64,000 bases of DNA. Source: Fimbriimonadaceae bacterium (GTDB taxonomy: Bacteria > Armatimonadota > Fimbriimonadia > Fimbriimonadales > Fimbriimonadaceae). The stretch covers positions 1 to 64,000 of the forward strand of contig JAHBTB010000012.1 in NCBI GenBank assembly GCA_019638795.1, read 5' to 3'. The notes under the pieces were generated by a model that saw only the letters and a program-made list of their open reading frames with translations, did no database searches and was not told the origin of the DNA. The first letter of the stretch is position 1. Every line of letters begins with the position of its first letter. The translations under genes were made by a program, and so were the position numbers. Below are positions 27,522 to 45,887 of this stretch, piece after piece.

Positions 27522-27568
27522 ACGAGGCTGACCCTGCCTTGGGACGCCGACAATCACACGGGGTCTCC

Positions 27569-30382
27569 ATGGCGGAACAGTTTGATTGGTCAGCAGTGCT
27601 GGAGCGGATAAAGGGGGACGGCGAACCAGTCCCCGCCGTCAAACCAGTGGCGAGCAACGGGGTCGGTAAGGTCGACCCGGTGGTCGCTCCGCCAGCTCCG
27701 CCAGCCCCGCCGGCCACAACCGCCCCACCGGCACCGCCGGTTCCGATGCCGCCGGTGGCCGAGACACCGCCGCCGCCCGTGGCCGTGGAGCCGTCTCTAG
27801 AGGCCGGCCCCCTCGCTTGGGACGAGGACGACATCCCCGCGCCGGTCGAGGTCCAGCCGGAACGGCCGAGGGAGTTCGCCCCGGACCCTGTGATCGCCCT
27901 GGACTGGGACGACGAGACACCTGCCACCCCGGAGCCACTGGGCACCGCCACCGTCGCCGACGTACCGCCAATGGAAGTCGTGGAGGGCCCGCCGATGCCG
28001 CCGGTCCCGGCCACGTCGGTCGAAAACCCGTCCTCTGACGAGACACCCGCCGCACCGGAACCATTGGGCACCGCCACCGTCGCCGACGTGCCGCCGATGG
28101 AAGTCGTGGAGGCCCCGCCGATGCCGCCAGTACTAGCCACGTCAGTAGATGAACAGTCCTCCGTGGTGGTCGAGGCACCTCCGGCCCCGGTATGCCCGCC
28201 CGAGGCTGCCCTTGAGGCCGAGCCGGTCATGGCCCCGCCGGCCCAGCCCGCCGACGAACGGCCCGCGATCAAGCTGTTGCCCACGGCCTTTGACCGGGAA
28301 CTCGGCACCGAAGCGGAGGCTGAGCCGGTGGCGGACGACGCCCCGACAGCCCCGGCCACTTTTTCGATGTCCGACCTTGACGCGCTGAAGTCCGGGCCGG
28401 CCCCAGCGGTCGAGCCGGGGCCCGCAGTCGTGGCGGAGTGCTTGGAAGCGGCCTCCGATCTGGACGAAACCAGCACCGTGCCTGTCGAGGAAGCCTTGCC
28501 GGACTCGGCGGAGCCGGCCGTCGCCGAAGTCAAGGCCGAGACAAAGCCGACGCCCAAGAAGCCCGCCAAGGCCAAGGCCGAAGACGCTCCCAAGGCTCCC
28601 GAACTCAAGCTGGTCAAGCGAGACGGCCCGACGAGCTTCGGGTTGTCGGACAAGCGGCTGGGCGCCGCCTTGCTCGACGTCAAGGCAGTGACGCGCAAGC
28701 AACTCGAGGAGGCCCTCGCCCAACAGGTCGAGACCGCCGAGCCTCTGGGCAAGATCCTCGTCAGGAAGGGTTTGGTCACCGTCGCCAAGGTCCTCCAGGT
28801 CGTCGCGATGCAGCGTGGGCTCGACGCCTGGGACTTGGAACTTGACCCGCCGAAGCCAGATGCGACGGGGCTGGTCCAAGGCGAGACGTGTCAGCGGCTC
28901 GGCGTCCTTCCCGTCGCCGTCCGTGGCGACCTCCTCGTCCTCGCAATGGTCGACCCGGACGACACCGCCGCCGTCGACGAGGTCAGGAAGGAGGCCGGGT
29001 TACGGGTCCAGCCGGTGCTGGCCGACCCCGAACGTCTCGCCGCCCTCGTCCAACGGAACTATCACCTCGACGCACGCTCGTCGTCGGTCATGGACACCTT
29101 GGTCGACCAAGCCTTGAAGACAGCGAAGGAGAGCGGCCATGCCAACACCAAGGAGCGGGCCACCGTCACCGAGGAAGAGACCCGGCCCGTCGTCGGGTTT
29201 GTCAACCAGATCATCCACGACGCGATCCGGATGCACGCGAGCGACATCCATATCGAACCGCGGTTCGACCGCGCGGAGATCCGCTACCGGCTCGACGGCC
29301 AGCTGATGACGATGCGCGAAGTGCCCCAGGCCCTGGTCCCCATGGTCACGACCCGGCTCAAGATCATGGCCGAGCTTGACATTGTCGAATACCGTGTCCC
29401 GCAGGACGGACGCATCTCGTTGCAACTTGGCAAGAACACGATCGACCTGCGTGTCAGTTGCCTGCCCTCGCTGCACGGACAACGCATCGTCATGCGTGTC
29501 TTGGACAAGAGCATCGGCCTGCGCCGACTGGACGAACTCGGGTTCGACGCCGAGAACCTGACCATTCTCCGCTCTCTGGTGGAGAAGCCCTACGGCCTTC
29601 TCTTTGCCACCGGGCCCACGGGCAGCGGCAAAACGACGACGCTCTACGCCGCCATCCAGGAAATGCGCCGCGACGGGCAGAACGTGATGACGTGCGAAGA
29701 CCCCGTCGAATACGACCTCGAAGGGGTCAACCAGTCTCAGGTGAACGAGCGGGTGGGCCTGACTTTTGCCGAGCAGTTGCGCGCGATCCTCCGACAAGAC
29801 CCGGACATCGTCCTCGTCGGCGAGGTGCGCGACCACGAGACCGCCGAGACCGCCGTCCGCGCCGCGATGACCGGACACATGGTCCTCAGCACCCTGCACT
29901 GCAACGACGCGCCCAGCGCCATCGCCCGGCTCCTCGACCTCGGCGTGGACCCGTTCCTGCTCAGCACGTCGCTGATCGGCTCGATGTCACAGCGGCTGGT
30001 CCGGCGTCTTTGTGCCGTGTGCCGGCGTGAAGAGGCCCCCACCGACGAGGAGTCGGACATGATGGAACGCCACTTTGGCGTCCAAGGGGTGGACAGCATC
30101 TGGCACGCGGTCGGCTGCGACAAATGCCACAACACCGGCTACAAGGGCCGGGTGGCGGTCAGCGAGATCATGCCGGTGGTCGAAGAGATCGCCGCCCTCA
30201 TCGCCGCCCGCGCCTCCCTGGAGCAGATCCGGGCGTCCGCGGCACTGTATGGCTACCTGCCCATGCAGAGTGACGCCATGGTCCGTGTCGCCCGGGGCGA
30301 GACGTCTCTGGAGGAGGCGCGACGCACCGTGTTCTTCGACACGATCCAGAGGAGGGACAAGCCGCGGAGCATCGCGGTCTGA
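27569..30382 (+). CDS. pilB: Type IV pilus / type II secretion assembly ATPase
   Basis: 937 residues, about 350 longer than typical PilB. Residues 1-345 are a disordered Pro/Ala/Glu/Val-rich extension containing a 42-residue tandem duplication. An MshEN-type N-domain (about 360-505) follows, with two LGKILVRKG-like repeats. The ATPase core has Walker A GPTGSGKTT (682-690), Asp box, Walker B ILRQDPDIVLVGEVRD and His box STLHCNDA. A zinc tetracysteine motif lies at C815/C818 and C850/C853. It powers pilus extension with the platform protein PilC (36094-37296), 5.7 kb away. The ATG at 27569 is preceded by GACAAT 14 bases upstream. Confidence 0.93.
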   Translation: MAEQFDWSAVLERIKGDGEPVPAVKPVASNGVGKVDPVVAPPAPPAPPATTAPPAPPVPMPPVAETPPPPVAVEPSLEAGPLAWDEDDIPAPVEVQPERPREFAPDPVIALDWDDETPATPEPLGTATVADVPPMEVVEGPPMPPVPATSVENPSSDETPAAPEPLGTATVADVPPMEVVEAPPMPPVLATSVDEQSSVVVEAPPAPVCPPEAALEAEPVMAPPAQPADERPAIKLLPTAFDRELGTEAEAEPVADDAPTAPATFSMSDLDALKSGPAPAVEPGPAVVAECLEAASDLDETSTVPVEEALPDSAEPAVAEVKAETKPTPKKPAKAKAEDAPKAPELKLVKRDGPTSFGLSDKRLGAALLDVKAVTRKQLEEALAQQVETAEPLGKILVRKGLVTVAKVLQVVAMQRGLDAWDLELDPPKPDATGLVQGETCQRLGVLPVAVRGDLLVLAMVDPDDTAAVDEVRKEAGLRVQPVLADPERLAALVQRNYHLDARSSSVMDTLVDQALKTAKESGHANTKERATVTEEETRPVVGFVNQIIHDAIRMHASDIHIEPRFDRAEIRYRLDGQLMTMREVPQALVPMVTTRLKIMAELDIVEYRVPQDGRISLQLGKNTIDLRVSCLPSLHGQRIVMRVLDKSIGLRRLDELGFDAENLTILRSLVEKPYGLLFATGPTGSGKTTTLYAAIQEMRRDGQNVMTCEDPVEYDLEGVNQSQVNERVGLTFAEQLRAILRQDPDIVLVGEVRDHETAETAVRAAMTGHMVLSTLHCNDAPSAIARLLDLGVDPFLLSTSLIGSMSQRLVRRLCAVCRREEAPTDEESDMMERHFGVQGVDSIWHAVGCDKCHNTGYKGRVAVSEIMPVVEEIAALIAARASLEQIRASAALYGYLPMQSDAMVRVARGETSLEEARRTVFFDTIQRRDKPRSIAV
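27911..28162 (+). repeat. 126 bp tandem duplication inside pilB
   Basis: Two units start with GACGAGACAC at 27911 and GACGAGACAC at 28037. Both encode TPA-x-PEPLGTATVADVPPMEV followed by VE-x-PPMPPV-x-ATSV. Unit 1 and unit 2 differ mostly at synonymous sites, so the duplication is old enough to have diverged yet the peptide is kept. Confidence 0.85.
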
Positions 30383-31515: not shown

Positions 31516-33237
31516 GTGATAGGCCCGGCGCAGATTGTCCGGCTGATCCAGGCAGGGCACCTGGACGAGGCGGTGCGCGCCGCCCGCCAATGGGCGGGGA
31601 CCGCCGCGGACGACCCGGCCGCCTGGCAACATCTTGGCGTCGCCCTCGCCCACGCTGACAAGACCGACGAGGCGCTTGAGGCCTTCGACAAGGGTCTCAC
31701 CGTCGCGCCGCACCATGCCGAACTCCATGCCGAGAAGGGCTTCGCCCTCGTCGCCGCCGGCCGCTTTGACGAGGCGGCGGACTGTTACCGGAGGGCCATG
31801 GAACTCGGCGACCATCCCGTCTTTCGCAACGGCCATGGCAACGCCCTGCTCCAGTCAGGAAAGCCGTTCGCCGCGGCACGCGAACTTGAAGTCGTTGTCC
31901 GCGAGCACCCCGACTTCCCTCCGGCCTGGTTCAACCTTGTCCAGGCCCGGCTCCAGGGCGGAGACAGCGCCGGCGCCCGGCGGACCGCCCAAGAGCTTGT
32001 CCGACGCGCCCCCCGCGACTACCACGTCCGAGACGCGGCGGTGTGGCCGCTCCTTTATAGCGACGACGTCACTCCCGAGGAACTTGCCGCGGGGCACCAG
32101 GTCTTCGCCGGCCTCCTTCCCCGACAACGTGACCCACGCCAGTTCCCCAACAACCGCGACCCCGAGCGCCGGCTCCGAGTGGGGTTCGTCTCCCCCGACT
32201 TCCGCGAACACTCGGTCTACCGCTTTGTCTGGCCCGTCTTCGAAGCGTTGGCCTCCCAACCGGTCGACGTCTATGCCTACGCATCGAGCTCGAACGAGGA
32301 CCGCGGCACCCAGCACATCGCGTCGTTGGCCAAGAAGTACGTCGATGTCACCGCGATGCGCCCGGAGCAACTCGCGCGGCAAGTGGCCGCAGACAAGATC
32401 GATATCCTGGTCGACCTCGCCGGGCACACGTTTCTCAACCGTTTGGTGGACATGTCGGTTCGTCTGGCCCCAGTGCAGGTGACGTGGGTCGGTTACCCGT
32501 GCTCGACCGGAGTGCCGGCCATCGACTTCCGCGTCGTCGACCACCTCACAGACCCGCCGGGCTCATGGATGACCGAGTCCCCGCTTGTCCTGAACCCATG
32601 CTTCCTGTGCTTCGGGCCACCGGCCGACGCACCTGAGCCTCGTGACGAGACCGAGGGCCCCACCTTCGCGTCGTTCAACGTCCTTGCGAAAGCGACGCCC
32701 ACAACCATCGACCTCTACGCCCGGTGCCTCCAGGCGTCGCCAGGATCTAAGCTGATCCTCAAGGCCCCCGTCCTCGGCGAAGAGGAGTGCCGGTCCAACC
32801 TTTTGGCCAAGTTCGCCGACCGCGGCGTCGACCCTCGCCGCGTCGAGTGCCTGGGCCGCCTTGAGCGCTATGCCGACCACCTCGCCTTGTACAACAAGGT
32901 CACCGTCGCCCTCGACCCCTTTCCCTACCACGGCACGACGACGACCTGCGAGGCGTACACGATGGGCGTACCGGTCGTCAGTCTGGTCGGCCAAACCCAT
33001 CATTCCCGTGTGGGGCTGAGCCTGGCCCACGCGGTCGGGCGGCCCGAATGGGCCTGCGCCGACGCTGACAGCTACGTGGCCACGGCGGTGCGCCTGGCGA
33101 CGACCTGGGGCGAAAGCGACCGCAAGAAACTCCGGGCCGACCTTGCCGAGTCTGTCCTGACCGACGCCGACGGCATGGCCGAGCGACTCATGACGGGCTT
33201 CCGTGCCGTCTGGCGCATGTGGTGTGGTCTCCGCTAG
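31516..33237 (+). CDS. TPR protein with SPINDLY-type O-GlcNAc transferase domain (GT41)
   Basis: 573 residues. Four to five TPR units (about 1-170, such as DPAAWQHLGVALAHADKTDE) are followed by a GT-B catalytic region: RLRVGFVSPDFREHSV (about 215), VDLAGHTFLNRL (about 297), PVQVTWVGYPCSTGVPAIDF (about 318) and PYHGTTTTCEAYTMGVPVVS (about 473). These match the bacterial O-GlcNAc transferase / SPINDLY family, which adds sugars to Ser/Thr of proteins. Possible targets are pilin, or flagellin if present elsewhere. Start GTG 31516 lies nine bases after TACCAT. It ends head-on with the YgiC-like gene (4 bp overlap). Confidence 0.9.
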   Translation: MIGPAQIVRLIQAGHLDEAVRAARQWAGTAADDPAAWQHLGVALAHADKTDEALEAFDKGLTVAPHHAELHAEKGFALVAAGRFDEAADCYRRAMELGDHPVFRNGHGNALLQSGKPFAAARELEVVVREHPDFPPAWFNLVQARLQGGDSAGARRTAQELVRRAPRDYHVRDAAVWPLLYSDDVTPEELAAGHQVFAGLLPRQRDPRQFPNNRDPERRLRVGFVSPDFREHSVYRFVWPVFEALASQPVDVYAYASSSNEDRGTQHIASLAKKYVDVTAMRPEQLARQVAADKIDILVDLAGHTFLNRLVDMSVRLAPVQVTWVGYPCSTGVPAIDFRVVDHLTDPPGSWMTESPLVLNPCFLCFGPPADAPEPRDETEGPTFASFNVLAKATPTTIDLYARCLQASPGSKLILKAPVLGEEECRSNLLAKFADRGVDPRRVECLGRLERYADHLALYNKVTVALDPFPYHGTTTTCEAYTMGVPVVSLVGQTHHSRVGLSLAHAVGRPEWACADADSYVATAVRLATTWGESDRKKLRADLAESVLTDADGMAERLMTGFRAVWRMWCGLR

Positions 33238-34379
33238 ACGATCCGATGGGGGACAAACGCCGAGAGGTTGTCGGTCACCAGAGTGGCCGACTCACGGAAC
33301 CCCAGACCACAGGCGGCATGGTCGACCACCCAACTGCCGACCACCGGCCGGAAGCCGTCAAATGCCGGCGTTTCAAAGTAGGCCTGGTACACAAACGGCC
33401 CTTCGTCATATTCGCCGCCCGTCTCGTGGACGACCTTGCCGCCTCGGACGACCTGCACGTTGGCCCCCTCCCGGCCCAGCATCGGCTTGCGGACGTAGTC
33501 CGTCATTCCGTTGGGATCGTCCAGATAGGCCGGCAACAGGTACTCATGGTACGGGAACATCTCCCACAGGACCGGAAGTAACCCTTTGGTGGAAAGGAGC
33601 ATCTTCCACACGGGCTCGATCCAGTCCATCGACCCGGCCAAGCGAAGGGCGTGCTGACCGAACTCCTCCCGCACCATCCACTCCCAGGGGTAGAGCTTGA
33701 AGATCGAGAGGATCGGCCTCTCCTCCATGTCGACGAACTGCCTCTTGCCGCTGTCCCAGCCGATGTCGGCCATCGTGATCATCTCGGTCCGGACACCGGC
33801 CTCCTCGGCGGTGTCCCGGAGCACCGTGATCGTCATGACGTCCTCGACCGAGTCTGCGCAAGCAAAGTAGACCGGACTTCCCTTGAGGGCACCGGGTTCG
33901 GCGGCCAAGGCCTTCCACTTGGCGACGAGGGCCTCCCATATCGAGTTGAACTGGTCGGCGCCGGGAGAGGTTTCCTGGAGCCAATGCCACTGGACCACCG
34001 CCGCCTCGAGTAGCGCGGTCGGCGTGTCGGCGTTGTATTCGAGGAGCTTGGCGCTATGCCCGTCGTATGCCAAGTCGAACCGGCCGTAGATCGAAGCAGG
34101 GTCCTTCTCCCAGGCGTAACGGACGGCGCCCTCCTCCAGAGGGCCGAGGCCCAGACGGCCAAAGAGGTTCTTCTCGATGATGTGGTCGACCGCCTTCAGG
34201 CACATCTGCGCCAGGGTGTTGGTCGCGTTCTCGAGGAGGGCGACGTCCCTGGACCCGATCTCATAACTGGCCGACTCCTTCCAGTAGGGATGGCCGTCCG
34301 GGGTGGTGTGGAAGACCAGGCCAAGCTCCTCCACCTTGGCGACCCAGTCCACCCGCGGCGGATGCTCGACGCGTCGCAT
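33234..34379 (-). CDS. Glutathionylspermidine synthase family protein (YgiC/YjfC-like)
   Basis: 381-residue ATP-grasp enzyme of the glutathionylspermidine-synthase family. Landmarks are WKESASYEIGSRDVALLENA (about 33), YGRFDLAYDG (about 94), KLLEYNADTPTALLEAA (about 108), RPILSIFKLYPWEWMVREEF (about 230) and RKPMLGREGANVQVV (about 306). The YgiC branch binds and ligates peptide-like substrates but need not make glutathionylspermidine. It starts at ATG 34379, overlapping the stop of the small upstream lipoprotein gene by one base, which resembles the ygiB-ygiC arrangement of E. coli. Confidence 0.9.
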   Translation of the reverse strand: MRRVEHPPRVDWVAKVEELGLVFHTTPDGHPYWKESASYEIGSRDVALLENATNTLAQMCLKAVDHIIEKNLFGRLGLGPLEEGAVRYAWEKDPASIYGRFDLAYDGHSAKLLEYNADTPTALLEAAVVQWHWLQETSPGADQFNSIWEALVAKWKALAAEPGALKGSPVYFACADSVEDVMTITVLRDTAEEAGVRTEMITMADIGWDSGKRQFVDMEERPILSIFKLYPWEWMVREEFGQHALRLAGSMDWIEPVWKMLLSTKGLLPVLWEMFPYHEYLLPAYLDDPNGMTDYVRKPMLGREGANVQVVRGGKVVHETGGEYDEGPFVYQAYFETPAFDGFRPVVGSWVVDHAACGLGFRESATLVTDNLSAFVPHRIV

Positions 34380-34741
34380 CAGCCGCCGAAGCCGCCCCAA
34401 CCTGAAGCTGAACCACCAAATCCTCCCCGGGTGACGCCGCCCGACCGGGGAGCAGAGGAGGGCGACGCGGACGGCGCGGTCGAAGGCCCCGCGCCGGCTG
34501 TGCCTCGGCTTCCGCCAAAGACGGGGAAGTACCCACCGACCCGGCTGGAGGACGACCGGTGGTAGACCCAATGAGGTTCGGCGGTCGGCCCCCCGCCGTT
34601 GGCGACGCACTCACTGTCAGGGCGGCGGACGCCGAGCCGCGACTCGCAGACCCGGGTAGACCCGGAACCACAGCCGGCGGCGAGCAGGGCCGCACCCATC
34701 GCCGCCACAAGTTTGGCGGGGACCTCACGAGAGCGTTTCAT
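34379..34741 (-). CDS. Small glycine/serine-rich lipoprotein (YgiB-like partner)
   Basis: 120 residues starting at ATG 34741. An N-terminal lipobox, LLAAGCGSGS, predicts lipidation at the Cys after about 22 residues. Two further cysteines (VCESRLGV and SECVANGG) are followed by a Ser/Pro-rich stretch and the C-terminus GGVTRGGFGGSASGWGGFGG. The C-x-C layout and the RGGFG-type tail recall YgiB/DUF1190 lipoproteins, which sit next to YgiC homologues. CACAAT ends 6 bases before the ATG, so the operon mRNA would be leaderless. Confidence 0.75.
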   Translation of the reverse strand: MKRSREVPAKLVAAMGAALLAAGCGSGSTRVCESRLGVRRPDSECVANGGGPTAEPHWVYHRSSSSRVGGYFPVFGGSRGTAGAGPSTAPSASPSSAPRSGGVTRGGFGGSASGWGGFGG

Positions 34742-35995: not shown

Positions 35996-36093
35996 AGAAG
36001 GCCCAGGAGATTTGACGGGCGACCCTAAGTAGGCCGGGGACGACCGTCCGACAATCCTTGTAGGGTCGGTCACCCTGCTAGGAGTACGCCAGG

Positions 36094-37296
36094 ATGCCTC
36101 AGTTTGCTTACGTCGCCGTTGACAACACCGGCAAGGAGATCAAATCGGTCCTCGACGCGGAGAACGAGTCGGCGGTCATCGGCCGTCTGCGCGAGCTCTC
36201 CCTGCAGGTCGTCGAGGTCAAGGAGACCAAGCGTAAGGTCCAGACGGGCAAAGCCCGGGGCAAGATGAAGCCCAAGGCGCTGGTCGTCTTCTCGCGGCAG
36301 TTCGCCACGATGATCGACGCGGGTATCCCCATCCTGCGCTGCCTGGAGATCCTGTCTTCGCAGACCAAGGACCCGTTCATGCGTCCGGCCCTCGAGCAGA
36401 TCACCGCCGACGTCAAGGGCGGTTCGACCCTCAACGAGGCGATGGCCAAGCACCCGGTGGTGTTTGGCAAACTCTACGTCAACATGGTGCGCGCCGCCGA
36501 GATCGGCGGCATCTTGGACGTCATCCTCGACCGCCTCAGCGGCTTTCTTGAGTACGAGAACGAGGTCCGGGCGAAGATCAAGTCGGCGATGATGTACCCG
36601 GTCTTGGTCATCTGCTTCAGCCAGTTGATGCTGTTCGTCCTCTTCAGTTTCGTCCTGCCGAAGTTTAAGGAGATCTTCAACGGCATGGACGTCAAGCTGC
36701 CGTTCGTCACCGCCATGCTCTTCGCGATGGGTGACTTCATGGCGGCGTATTGGTGGGTCATCCTGCTCGTCTTGGGCGCGATCTTCTTCGGCATCAAGTC
36801 GTACGCCAAGACACCCAAGGGCAAGCACCAGTTGGACTACATCAAGCTGAAGTTCCCGATCATCGGAGAACTAGCGCTCAAGATGAGCGTCGCCCGGTTC
36901 TGCCGCACGTTCGGCACCCTGATCAACAGCGGCGTGCCGATGATGCGGAGCCTCGAGATTGTCGGCGAGACCCTCAACAACGCCGTCCTCACCGAGGCGA
37001 TCGACCACACCCGCAACAGCATCCGCGAGGGTAGCAAACTCAGCGCCCCGCTAGCCCAGAGCGGCCTCTTCCCCAGCATGGTCACCCACATGATCGACGT
37101 CGGTGAAGAGTCGGGCCGCCTCAGCGAGATGATGGTCAAAGTGGGCGACTTCTACGACGCCGAAGTCGAGTCCACCGTGAAAGGTTTGACATCGATGATC
37201 GAGCCCTTGCTCATCATCTTTCTTGGCCTGGTCGTCGGTTTCATCGCCATCTCGGTCATGACTCCGGTCTTCACCCTGGTCAACGGCGTCAAGTGA
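36094..37296 (+). CDS. pilC: Type IV pilus inner-membrane platform protein PilC (GspF family)
   Basis: 400 residues. A short N-terminal GspF linker (QFAYVAVDNTGKEI) precedes two copies of the T2SSF domain: FSRQFATMIDAGIPILRCLE (about 68) and ARFCRTFGTLINSGVPMMRS (about 267). Membrane segments lie at about 170-195, 215-240 and 370-395. PilC couples the PilB ATPase to pilus assembly. Start fixed by a GGAG ribosome site ahead of ATG 36094. The gene is not linked to other pil genes except PilB at 27.6-30.4 kb. A sigma-GGDEF gene follows 151 bp downstream. Confidence 0.95.
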   Translation: MPQFAYVAVDNTGKEIKSVLDAENESAVIGRLRELSLQVVEVKETKRKVQTGKARGKMKPKALVVFSRQFATMIDAGIPILRCLEILSSQTKDPFMRPALEQITADVKGGSTLNEAMAKHPVVFGKLYVNMVRAAEIGGILDVILDRLSGFLEYENEVRAKIKSAMMYPVLVICFSQLMLFVLFSFVLPKFKEIFNGMDVKLPFVTAMLFAMGDFMAAYWWVILLVLGAIFFGIKSYAKTPKGKHQLDYIKLKFPIIGELALKMSVARFCRTFGTLINSGVPMMRSLEIVGETLNNAVLTEAIDHTRNSIREGSKLSAPLAQSGLFPSMVTHMIDVGEESGRLSEMMVKVGDFYDAEVESTVKGLTSMIEPLLIIFLGLVVGFIAISVMTPVFTLVNGVK

Positions 37297-37447
37297 CGCG
37301 AGCCTAGAGACAACTGCATAACAACTGAATATCAGGCCGGCGCCGCAGGATGCGGCGCAGGGCCAATCAAAGCCAAGGGTCACGGCAGGACGCCGGTCAG
37401 CCCTTGGGCGCGGGAAAGGATTTCCGCGTGACGGTCACGGAGCGAAC
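37297..37447 (+). other. pilC-sigma intergenic region with a short hairpin
   Basis: Contains GCGCCGC AGGAT GCGGCGC (37341-37359), a 7 bp stem without a T-run. A weak GGAG lies before ATG 37448. No other signal was recognised, so the sigma gene may be partly read through from pilC. Confidence 0.35.
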
Positions 37448-38716
37448 ATGTCGGAAGCATTGGCAAAGAGGAACGCAGACGCCGAACAGTTGATCCTTGA
37501 GTACCTGGCGGATCCCAGGCCAGACCTCAAGGACCTGGTGATCCTGCATTACGCGGGCATGGTGGAGCGCATCGCGAGAAGGTTCAGTGGGGTCGAGTCG
37601 GTCGACGACCTCGCCCAAGTCGGCTACATCGGCCTGCTCAACGCGCTCAGCAAGTTCGACCCCGCCGCCGGCGTCCGCTTCAACACGTACGCCACCCACC
37701 TGGTCGCCGGAGAGATCAAGCACTACCTGCGCGACCGGGCCCAGACGATCCGCCACCCAGCCTGGCTCCAAGAGCTCCGTCACAAAGTCAACCGCGCCAC
37801 CACCGTCCTCCAGGCCGAGTTGGGGCGGGTCCCGACCGACCGCGAGGTCGCCGAACGGATCGGCGTGAGCGAATCGGCCGTCCAAGAGGTCAACGCGACC
37901 CACGACATGCTCCGGGTCGCCAGCCTAGACGCCACGCCCAATGACGACGACGAGGCGGACAGCGACGTCGAGCGCTTGGACGGGAGCCTCGTCCAAGGCG
38001 CCCAGACCAGCGTCGAGGACCGCGTCGTGCTGGAGACGGCGATGCAACAACTCCGTGACCTTGAGCGCGAGGTCCTCGTTCTCTTCCACTTCGACGCCCT
38101 CAGCCAGACCGAGATTGCCGCCCGGCTGGGCATCTCCTGTAACTACGTCTCCCACATCCTGCGCCAGTCGCTCTCCAAGCTACGCCGCATTCTCACCGCC
38201 GAGGAAGACCAGGACCGCCTGCTCCGCCTCGCCCGCCCCGACCAGTCTGACCAGGTGATGGACCCTGAGACCAGCGCGTACACCGAGGCCTACTTCAAAT
38301 CACGCCTGACAGAGGAGCTACACCGGGTGTGCAGCCACAACGGGGTCGTCAGCATCGTCATGGTCGAGATCACCGGCGTCCAAAACATGCGCGGGTTCTT
38401 CGGCGAGCAGGGAGTCAAGGAGTTCGTCACAGACGCGGCCGAGTTCTTCCGGTCCAGCGTGCGCGCCCTCGACATAGTCTGCCGCCACGGGCAGCACGGG
38501 TTCGGCATCATCTTGCCGTCGACCGGTGACACTGCCGAGACGGTCTGCCAACGCCTCGAGACGAAGTTCGGCCGGTGGGCCGTCGGCCGCATCGCGCCGA
38601 ACAGCCCGATGAAGGTCCGCTTCGGGTTCGCCACGGGCCCGGACAGCGGCCGCTCGGTGGCCGACCTTGTCAAGGCCGCCCTGCCCGACGACGAGACCTT
38701 AGCCCAAGCCGCCTAA
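37448..38716 (+). CDS. Sigma-70 family factor fused to a degenerate GGDEF domain
   Basis: 422 residues. Residues about 25-265 are a group 3 sigma factor (SigB/SigF/WhiG-like). Region 2 contains DLAQVGYIGLLNALSKFDP and RFNTYATHLVAGEIKHYLRD; region 3 contains LGRVPTDREVAERIGVSESA; region 4 has the helix-turn-helix SQTEIAARLGISCNYVSHIL. Residues about 271-415 are a GGDEF-like domain: DPETSAYTEAYFKSRLTEEL at its start and GFGIILPSTGDTAETVCQRL after the signature position. The signature GGDEF is replaced by GQHGF (348-352), so cyclase activity is unlikely. RALD (339-342), five residues upstream, matches the RxxD inhibitory c-di-GMP site. I infer a sigma factor controlled by c-di-GMP. Confidence 0.9.
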   Translation: MSEALAKRNADAEQLILEYLADPRPDLKDLVILHYAGMVERIARRFSGVESVDDLAQVGYIGLLNALSKFDPAAGVRFNTYATHLVAGEIKHYLRDRAQTIRHPAWLQELRHKVNRATTVLQAELGRVPTDREVAERIGVSESAVQEVNATHDMLRVASLDATPNDDDEADSDVERLDGSLVQGAQTSVEDRVVLETAMQQLRDLEREVLVLFHFDALSQTEIAARLGISCNYVSHILRQSLSKLRRILTAEEDQDRLLRLARPDQSDQVMDPETSAYTEAYFKSRLTEELHRVCSHNGVVSIVMVEITGVQNMRGFFGEQGVKEFVTDAAEFFRSSVRALDIVCRHGQHGFGIILPSTGDTAETVCQRLETKFGRWAVGRIAPNSPMKVRFGFATGPDSGRSVADLVKAALPDDETLAQAA

Positions 38717-45101: not shown

Positions 45102-45887
45102 CTAGGCGACGTGTGCCGCCCCCTCTTCGCGCATAAAGTTGCGCAACCGACCCATCGCTTGCGTGTGCAGTTGGTACACACGGCTCTCACTCACTCCCAA
45201 AACCTTGCCGATCTCTTTGAAGGTCAGCCCCTCGAAATAGTAGAGGGCGATGACCAGTCTTTCGCGTTCGGGCAGGCGGTCGACCCCGGCCGCCATGATG
45301 CGGCGCAGTTCTTTGCCCTCCACCTCGACGCCCGGGTTGGCCTCTTCGTCGACGATCATCTCGACAAAGTGGATGTGGTCGTCGCCGTCCTGACTGCCGC
45401 CACCGACCACGTCGTCCAAACTGTAGACGTTGGTGCGCCCCATGCGGACGAGGAGGTCGTTCACCTCTTGGTCGCTCAGGCTCAGGTAGTCGCCCAGTTC
45501 GCGCACTGTCGCCGGACGACCGAACTCGGTCTCCAGCTTCGTCTGGGCGCGGTCTAGGGCCTTGAGCTTCTCGCGGATCGACCGCGGCACCCAGTCTTCG
45601 TCGCGGAGCATCTCCAAGATCGCGCCGCGGATGAGGGCGATGGCGTAGGTTTCAAACTTGACGTCCCGGGTGGGGTCGTACTGGTCCACGCTCTTGATCA
45701 ACCCGATGACGCCGGCGCTCACCAGGTCGTCACGGTCGAGACCGCCCGGGACGCTGGTCACCAGGCGGCCGGACGTGATCTTGACAAGATACGAATAGTG
45801 GTTGATCAGGTCGACCCGTGCCGACGGGTTCTTGTAGACCTTGTAGTCGATCCAGGTCCTCTGGAGCAGGTCGGGTGACAATGGCAT
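45102..45887 (-). CDS. FliA/WhiG-type sigma factor
   Basis: 261-residue group 3 sigma. Region 2: GGLDRDDLVSAGVIGLIKSV and DQYDPTRDVKFETYAIALIR with GAILEMLRDEDWVPRSIREK after it, a hallmark of FliA/WhiG. Region 3: FGRPATVRELGDYLSLSDQE. Region 4: LTFKEIGKVLGVSESRVYQL. It could control motility or developmental genes, but no flagellar gene occurs in the window. Flanked by two small orphan genes on the same strand. A GGGAG precedes ATG 45887. Confidence 0.93.
   Translation of the reverse strand: MPLSPDLLQRTWIDYKVYKNPSARVDLINHYSYLVKITSGRLVTSVPGGLDRDDLVSAGVIGLIKSVDQYDPTRDVKFETYAIALIRGAILEMLRDEDWVPRSIREKLKALDRAQTKLETEFGRPATVRELGDYLSLSDQEVNDLLVRMGRTNVYSLDDVVGGGSQDGDDHIHFVEMIVDEEANPGVEVEGKELRRIMAAGVDRLPERERLVIALYYFEGLTFKEIGKVLGVSESRVYQLHTQAMGRLRNFMREEGAAHVA

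Follow-up and report, generated by a model that had tools for sequence, protein, structure and literature searches.

The gene at positions 37448-38716 (+) of the 64,000-nt stretch of Fimbriimonadaceae DNA analysed here (the window) most probably encodes an alternative sigma factor with a c-di-GMP receptor of its own, namely a GGDEF domain that has lost catalysis and retained the I-site. Through this fused sigma factor, the surface-attachment signal of the cell would probably reach the transcription machinery directly. The evidence is drawn from sequence and comparison (architecture, predicted fold, constraint, gene order, co-loss, a leader motif and a terminal motif); c-di-GMP binding, the direction of control, CsrA binding, degradation and the regulon are steps that we infer. 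If true, a sigma factor with a built-in receptor would be the shortest path from c-di-GMP to RNA polymerase, and it would help to explain the control of surface attachment in a phylum whose regulatory biology is little known (the Armatimonadota; the host genome is 2.7 Mb in size).

The gene consists of a single intact open frame of 422 codons followed by TAA (features are on the + strand unless stated otherwise). Pfam analysis identified sigma-70 regions 2, 3 and 4 (37541..38185, residues 32-246), with region 2 at residues 32-98 (1.2e-14), region 3 at residues 109-169 (1.1e-11) and region 4 at residues 198-246 (3.1e-12). Behind these lies a GGDEF-fold domain whose catalytic signature is lost (38258..38680, residues 271-411; PF00990, 1.8e-13, 51 bits against a cut-off of 23.8). 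One 422-codon frame joining sigma regions 2-3-4 to a GGDEF-like domain, as described in the first-pass annotation of this DNA, was thereby confirmed. Regions 2-4 are complete and conserved, and the protein is a group-3-type sigma factor. Its nearest models are those of SigB/SigF/SigG; the best-scoring curated model, TIGR02980, gave 180.9 bits, below the cut-off of 234.35, and this family is its best relative rather than one of which it is a curated member. The FliA/WhiG model TIGR02479 gave 121.1 bits, below its cut-off of 189.6.

Full-length or nearly full-length orthologues were found in 58/61 genomes of the order (with the genome of the window counted in), sharing 41-84% identity, and a search for the same domain order, which the first-pass annotation had proposed, thus found it throughout most of the order. 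Since the two domains recur in this order at such identities, the fusion is not a product of chance. Among 201 genomes sampled across the Armatimonadota, near full-length matches, defined as those reaching query residue 360 or further, occur in about 114. A search of plasmids for the fusion returned no record covering 80% of the protein. Scanning of contigs with family-specific peptides yielded 80 listed matches, which belong to Armatimonadota, to generically titled bins and to one evident mislabel. A public record titled Methanoregulaceae archaeon contains a Fimbriimonadaceae-like contig with the fused sigma gene and is evidently a mislabelled bin.

AlphaFold2 prediction with 48 orthologues (mean pLDDT 85) gave two well-formed domains, with the mutual placement of sigma and GGDEF not fixed by the model (pTM 0.43); confidence was low at the C-terminal tail. 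The top structural match of the second domain is PleD with c-di-GMP (Z 19.4, 153 residues, 2.6 A), with other GGDEF structures coming next at tied or close Z, so the structure prediction that had been called for earlier did return a GGDEF fold. The place of the GGDEF signature is taken by GQHGF (38489..38503, residues 348-352), which is fast-evolving, and the RxxD motif of the primary I-site is present as RALD (38462..38473, residues 339-342, with R339 and D342). Exactly five residues (IVCRH) separate the two motifs, in keeping with the spacing first annotated. In the alignment with PleD, the aligned ranges begin with a 20-residue offset, which we take to put R293, R339 and D342 on PleD R313, R359 and D362; R369 presumably corresponds to PleD R390, with one gap between. 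In the alignment with DgcR-c-di-GMP (6zxm), RALD stands opposite RKSD and R369 opposite an Arg.

Conservation of the I-site among homologues was one of the points on which the first-pass annotation had staked its reading. RxxD is kept in 98/98 aligned homologues and a GGDEF-like signature in 0/98, while R293 (38324..38326, secondary I-site position) is kept in 97/98 and R369 (38552..38554, primary I-site position) in 94/98. Maximum-likelihood rates over 58 closer orthologues showed R339 and D342 to be the slowest sites of the GGDEF domain, with the dead-signature positions 349 and 350 evolving at 3.5x and 1.6x the average. Canonical GGDEF proteins are encoded in the same genome, and as only 3/7 of its other GGDEF proteins whose GGDEF/GGEEF signature is wholly or almost intact carry RxxD, the motif is dispensable for the fold. 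RxxD has been kept in all 98 homologues with the signature lost, and no sites of the domain evolve more slowly than R339 and D342; selection has therefore preserved the I-site. The domain would be a clean example of an enzyme domain that has become a receptor, the ligand site having been retained, and the catalytic site lost, across 98 sequences.

Evolution of the domain as a whole is faster than that of the sigma part (mean rate 1.33 vs 0.40-0.80, same 58 orthologues), as would be expected were the GGDEF part a functionless relic, but its frame is open and full-length across the phylum and RxxD is invariant (98/98); a relic was rejected on this conservation and is considered highly improbable. 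Residues E289, E290 and R286 are likewise highly conserved, and none of them is a known ligand contact. They would suit a protein-protein module for an anti-sigma factor, an adaptor or the pilus motor, in which RxxD is retained as part of a docking surface and not for c-di-GMP. The conserved set nevertheless holds all four of the PleD I-site residues compared, and we regard a docking module as unlikely.

The direct upstream neighbour of the fused sigma gene is pilC (36094..37296; T2SSF, 8.7e-64), which lies on the same strand and ends at 37296, 151 nt ahead of it. Where a Fimbriimonadia locus reaches far enough upstream, the gene preceding the fused sigma gene on its strand is almost always pilC. 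Other lineages show the gene orders pilB (MshEN)-pilT-pilC-sigma, pilT-pilT-pilC-sigma or pilT-pilC-sigma, and in several distant lineages no pilC match adjoining the fused sigma gene was found. Five genomes of one genus (completeness 98-99%) lack both the fused sigma gene and its pilC, their remaining pilC paralogues having at most 40-42% identity, and four other genomes of that genus have both. Because the two are absent together and present together, they seem to behave as one unit in both inheritance and loss. The first-pass annotation had noted that a position after pilC fits a surface-attachment switch; with pilC found order-wide, the rows with pilT and pilB and the co-loss, the link is stronger than was claimed. 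These rows and the co-loss go beyond that annotation, as do the CsrA-type leader, the conserved terminal -AA and the WhiG-like pilC promoter described below. Elsewhere in the window, 27539-30379 (+) encodes a PilB-type ATPase of 947 aa with an MshEN domain behind a long N-terminal extension; MshEN is a c-di-GMP-binding module.

A FliA/WhiG-like promoter, TAAGT-N17-CCGACAAT, was identified at 36026..36055 (+), 39 nt ahead of the pilC start. Similar sites precede pilC in about 30 relatives, some of them closely related to one another, mostly at 45-70 nt from the start codon; the CCGACAAT motif was first spotted by eye and then counted, which makes this a post hoc count. A single pattern search of the genome, the one probe made of the regulon, gave six occurrences against none for the reversed control. 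Four of the six stand 29-45 nt ahead of an ORF, namely pilC, an ORF of at least 490 codons (by position, the membrane GGDEF protein L222) and two proteins of 116 and 217 aa. The 116-aa protein ends in -DIAA and starts 45 nt downstream of its WhiG-like promoter motif. Upstream of pilC, a SigB-type promoter (GTTT-N-GGGTA) was looked for and not found, and a de novo dyad count, in which related genomes were mixed, exceeded the shuffles but gave no single clean dyad. A FliA/WhiG-family sigma factor is encoded at 45105-45887 (-), 6.4 kb from the fused sigma gene (TIGR02479, 228.1 bits against a cut-off of 189.6), and it may read the pilC promoter. As the -10 element of this promoter resembles that of FliA/WhiG and a genuine FliA/WhiG sigma is present, the pilC-sigma operon may be driven by WhiG, with the targets of the fused sigma perhaps lying elsewhere.

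The 151-nt leader of the fused sigma gene (37297..37447) has the appearance of a CsrA target. It contains a hairpin with GGA in its loop (37340..37358), two further hairpins with AGGA in their loops (37383..37395 and 37409..37428) and a Shine-Dalgarno sequence that includes GGA (ACGGAG, 37437..37442), and its fold has z = -3.0. Over 56 sigma leaders, GGA in hairpin loops was counted 89 times vs 13.7 expected from dinucleotide shuffles, ranking first among all 64 trinucleotides, and AGGA 51 times vs 3.3; TCC, the reverse complement of GGA, was at chance (10 vs 8.7). For 210 other leaders from the same loci, used as control, the level was that of chance (0.219 vs 0.223 per leader). The Shine-Dalgarno GGA lies inside a short hairpin loop (stem of at least 3) in 36/56 leaders, a count made without shuffle control, and in the window's own leader it lies outside any such loop. 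csrA was identified in 59/61 genomes of the order, among them that of the window. Leaders repressed by CsrA carry GGA in hairpin loops, often at the Shine-Dalgarno sequence too, in sequences near RUACARGGAUGU (PMC7652899). The sigma leader has the same GGA-loop form and is probably a target of CsrA. It differs from those described in that the target would be a sigma factor with a putative c-di-GMP receptor of its own, in Armatimonadota, for which no Csr study was found in the open literature. Outside the order, leaders gave a weak signal (14 GGA vs 6 TCC in 40 leaders). An orthologue in a genome of 1.5 Mb has a leader without GGA, and its protein ends in -NF and not in -AA.

The fused sigma ends in Ala-Ala (38708..38713), and this ending is probably a degron of the ClpXP/ssrA type. 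Its tail is hypervariable until the final two residues, which rank with the best-conserved positions in the C-terminal half (-AA in 53/58 orthologues, -VA in 4/58), whereas the synonymous codons and the stop codons at this end vary freely. Among other genes at the same loci, taken as a crude longest-ORF set, -AA ends 12/308 (4%), which corresponds to a Fisher p of about 5e-46 with kinship ignored. ClpX is present, and the tmRNA tag of the genome, ANNTFAYAA, has the same -AA end. The endings of WhiG orthologues were considered as a second degron of -VA type and rejected, as they are mixed (-VA, -VR and others) and show no conservation. Four of the nine GGDEF proteins of the genome also end in -AA (L218, L221, L222 and L224), and proteolysis of several c-di-GMP proteins may be signalled by such ends.

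From these features it could be argued that c-di-GMP works mainly on stability, with a ligand at the I-site exposing or hiding -AA for destruction of the sigma factor by ClpXP, as if the receptor PopA and the substrate CtrA had been merged in one molecule. The conserved final residues behind a hypervariable tail, the excess of -AA over other genes (53/58 vs 12/308), the presence of ClpX and a tmRNA tag ending in YAA, the low AlphaFold2 confidence at the tail, which fits an exposed end, and the precedent of PopA (PMC12564702) are all consistent with it. However, about half of 40 distant homologues have the I-site without -AA, and the I-site thus has a job that is independent of -AA; several other GGDEF proteins of the genome also end in -AA. 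Action chiefly on stability is for these reasons considered improbable, if a fair contender.

In the reading preferred here, of a sigma factor with its own receptor, c-di-GMP would be read at the I-site of the fused domain, probably as an intercalated dimer bridging the I-sites of two GGDEF domains or, alternatively, the I-site and another surface of the fused sigma. Binding would alter the C-terminal domain's state and thereby decide whether the sigma joins RNA polymerase, and genes for type IV pili and surface life would be transcribed in step with the level of c-di-GMP, the output probably including type IV pilus functions. Inhibition of the fused sigma by high c-di-GMP is slightly favoured over activation on account of the RsiG-WhiG analogy. 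The amount of sigma would probably be lowered by CsrA acting on the hairpin leader and by ClpXP-type proteolysis through -AA. These two layers are not universal, because -AA is lacking in about half of the distant homologues, and leaders from outside the order show a weak CsrA signal. The wider proposal, that one-component sigma factors reading c-di-GMP through an I-site-only GGDEF domain occur phylum-wide and that in one order CsrA and ClpXP set their level, is put forward tentatively, at a little less than an even chance. If true, one pilus-linked sigma factor would have its translation, its activity and its turnover each governed by a lifestyle signal.

Control of a sigma factor by c-di-GMP has been described for RsiG-(c-di-GMP)-WhiG of Streptomyces and Rubrobacter, which is termed the sole sigma-anti-sigma complex known to be a target of c-di-GMP, and in Rubrobacter its output is type IV pili (PMC8325347). 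The fused sigma shares with it the theme of c-di-GMP and sigma and the link to type IV pili. In RsiG-WhiG the receptor is a separate anti-sigma factor, as the first-pass annotation had stated, with a helix motif of its own, whereas in the fusion a GGDEF domain within the sigma is the putative receptor; the c-di-GMP motif of RsiG was not found in the ORFs of the window. PopA and PelD, also cited in that annotation, are degenerate GGDEF receptors of c-di-GMP, and PopA acts with ClpXP (PMC12564702). Like them, the fused domain has a GGDEF fold, a dead catalytic site and a retained RxxD I-site, and the ClpXP-like -AA end of the protein recalls the partnership of PopA, but none of the described receptors of this kind that were found has a sigma factor as its effector. 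Cyanobacterial group-3 SigF controls pilA and motility (PMC6495340). The sigma part of the fusion scores high with a SigF model, though cyanobacterial SigF has no described receptor domain and the fused sigma has its GGDEF domain. Regulatory domains fused at the C-terminus are also present in some ECF sigma factors, ECF41 being an example. In these the regulatory domain lies behind sigma region 4, as in the fused sigma, which differs in being of group-3 type with regions 2-3-4 and a putative second-messenger receptor. No paper on a GGDEF-bearing or c-di-GMP-binding sigma factor was found in the open-access literature, and the earlier statement that no such fusion has been characterised stands to that extent; as far as this literature shows, a known type of receptor is joined here to an effector with which it is undescribed.

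Other genes of the window include one for a TPR protein with a glycosyltransferase family 41 (OGT-like) domain at 31516-33237 (+) and one for a glutathionylspermidine synthase-like protein at 33237-34610 (-; PF03738, 472 bits). Apparent speD (41556) and speE (42249) genes, named by eye, are located in the same window.
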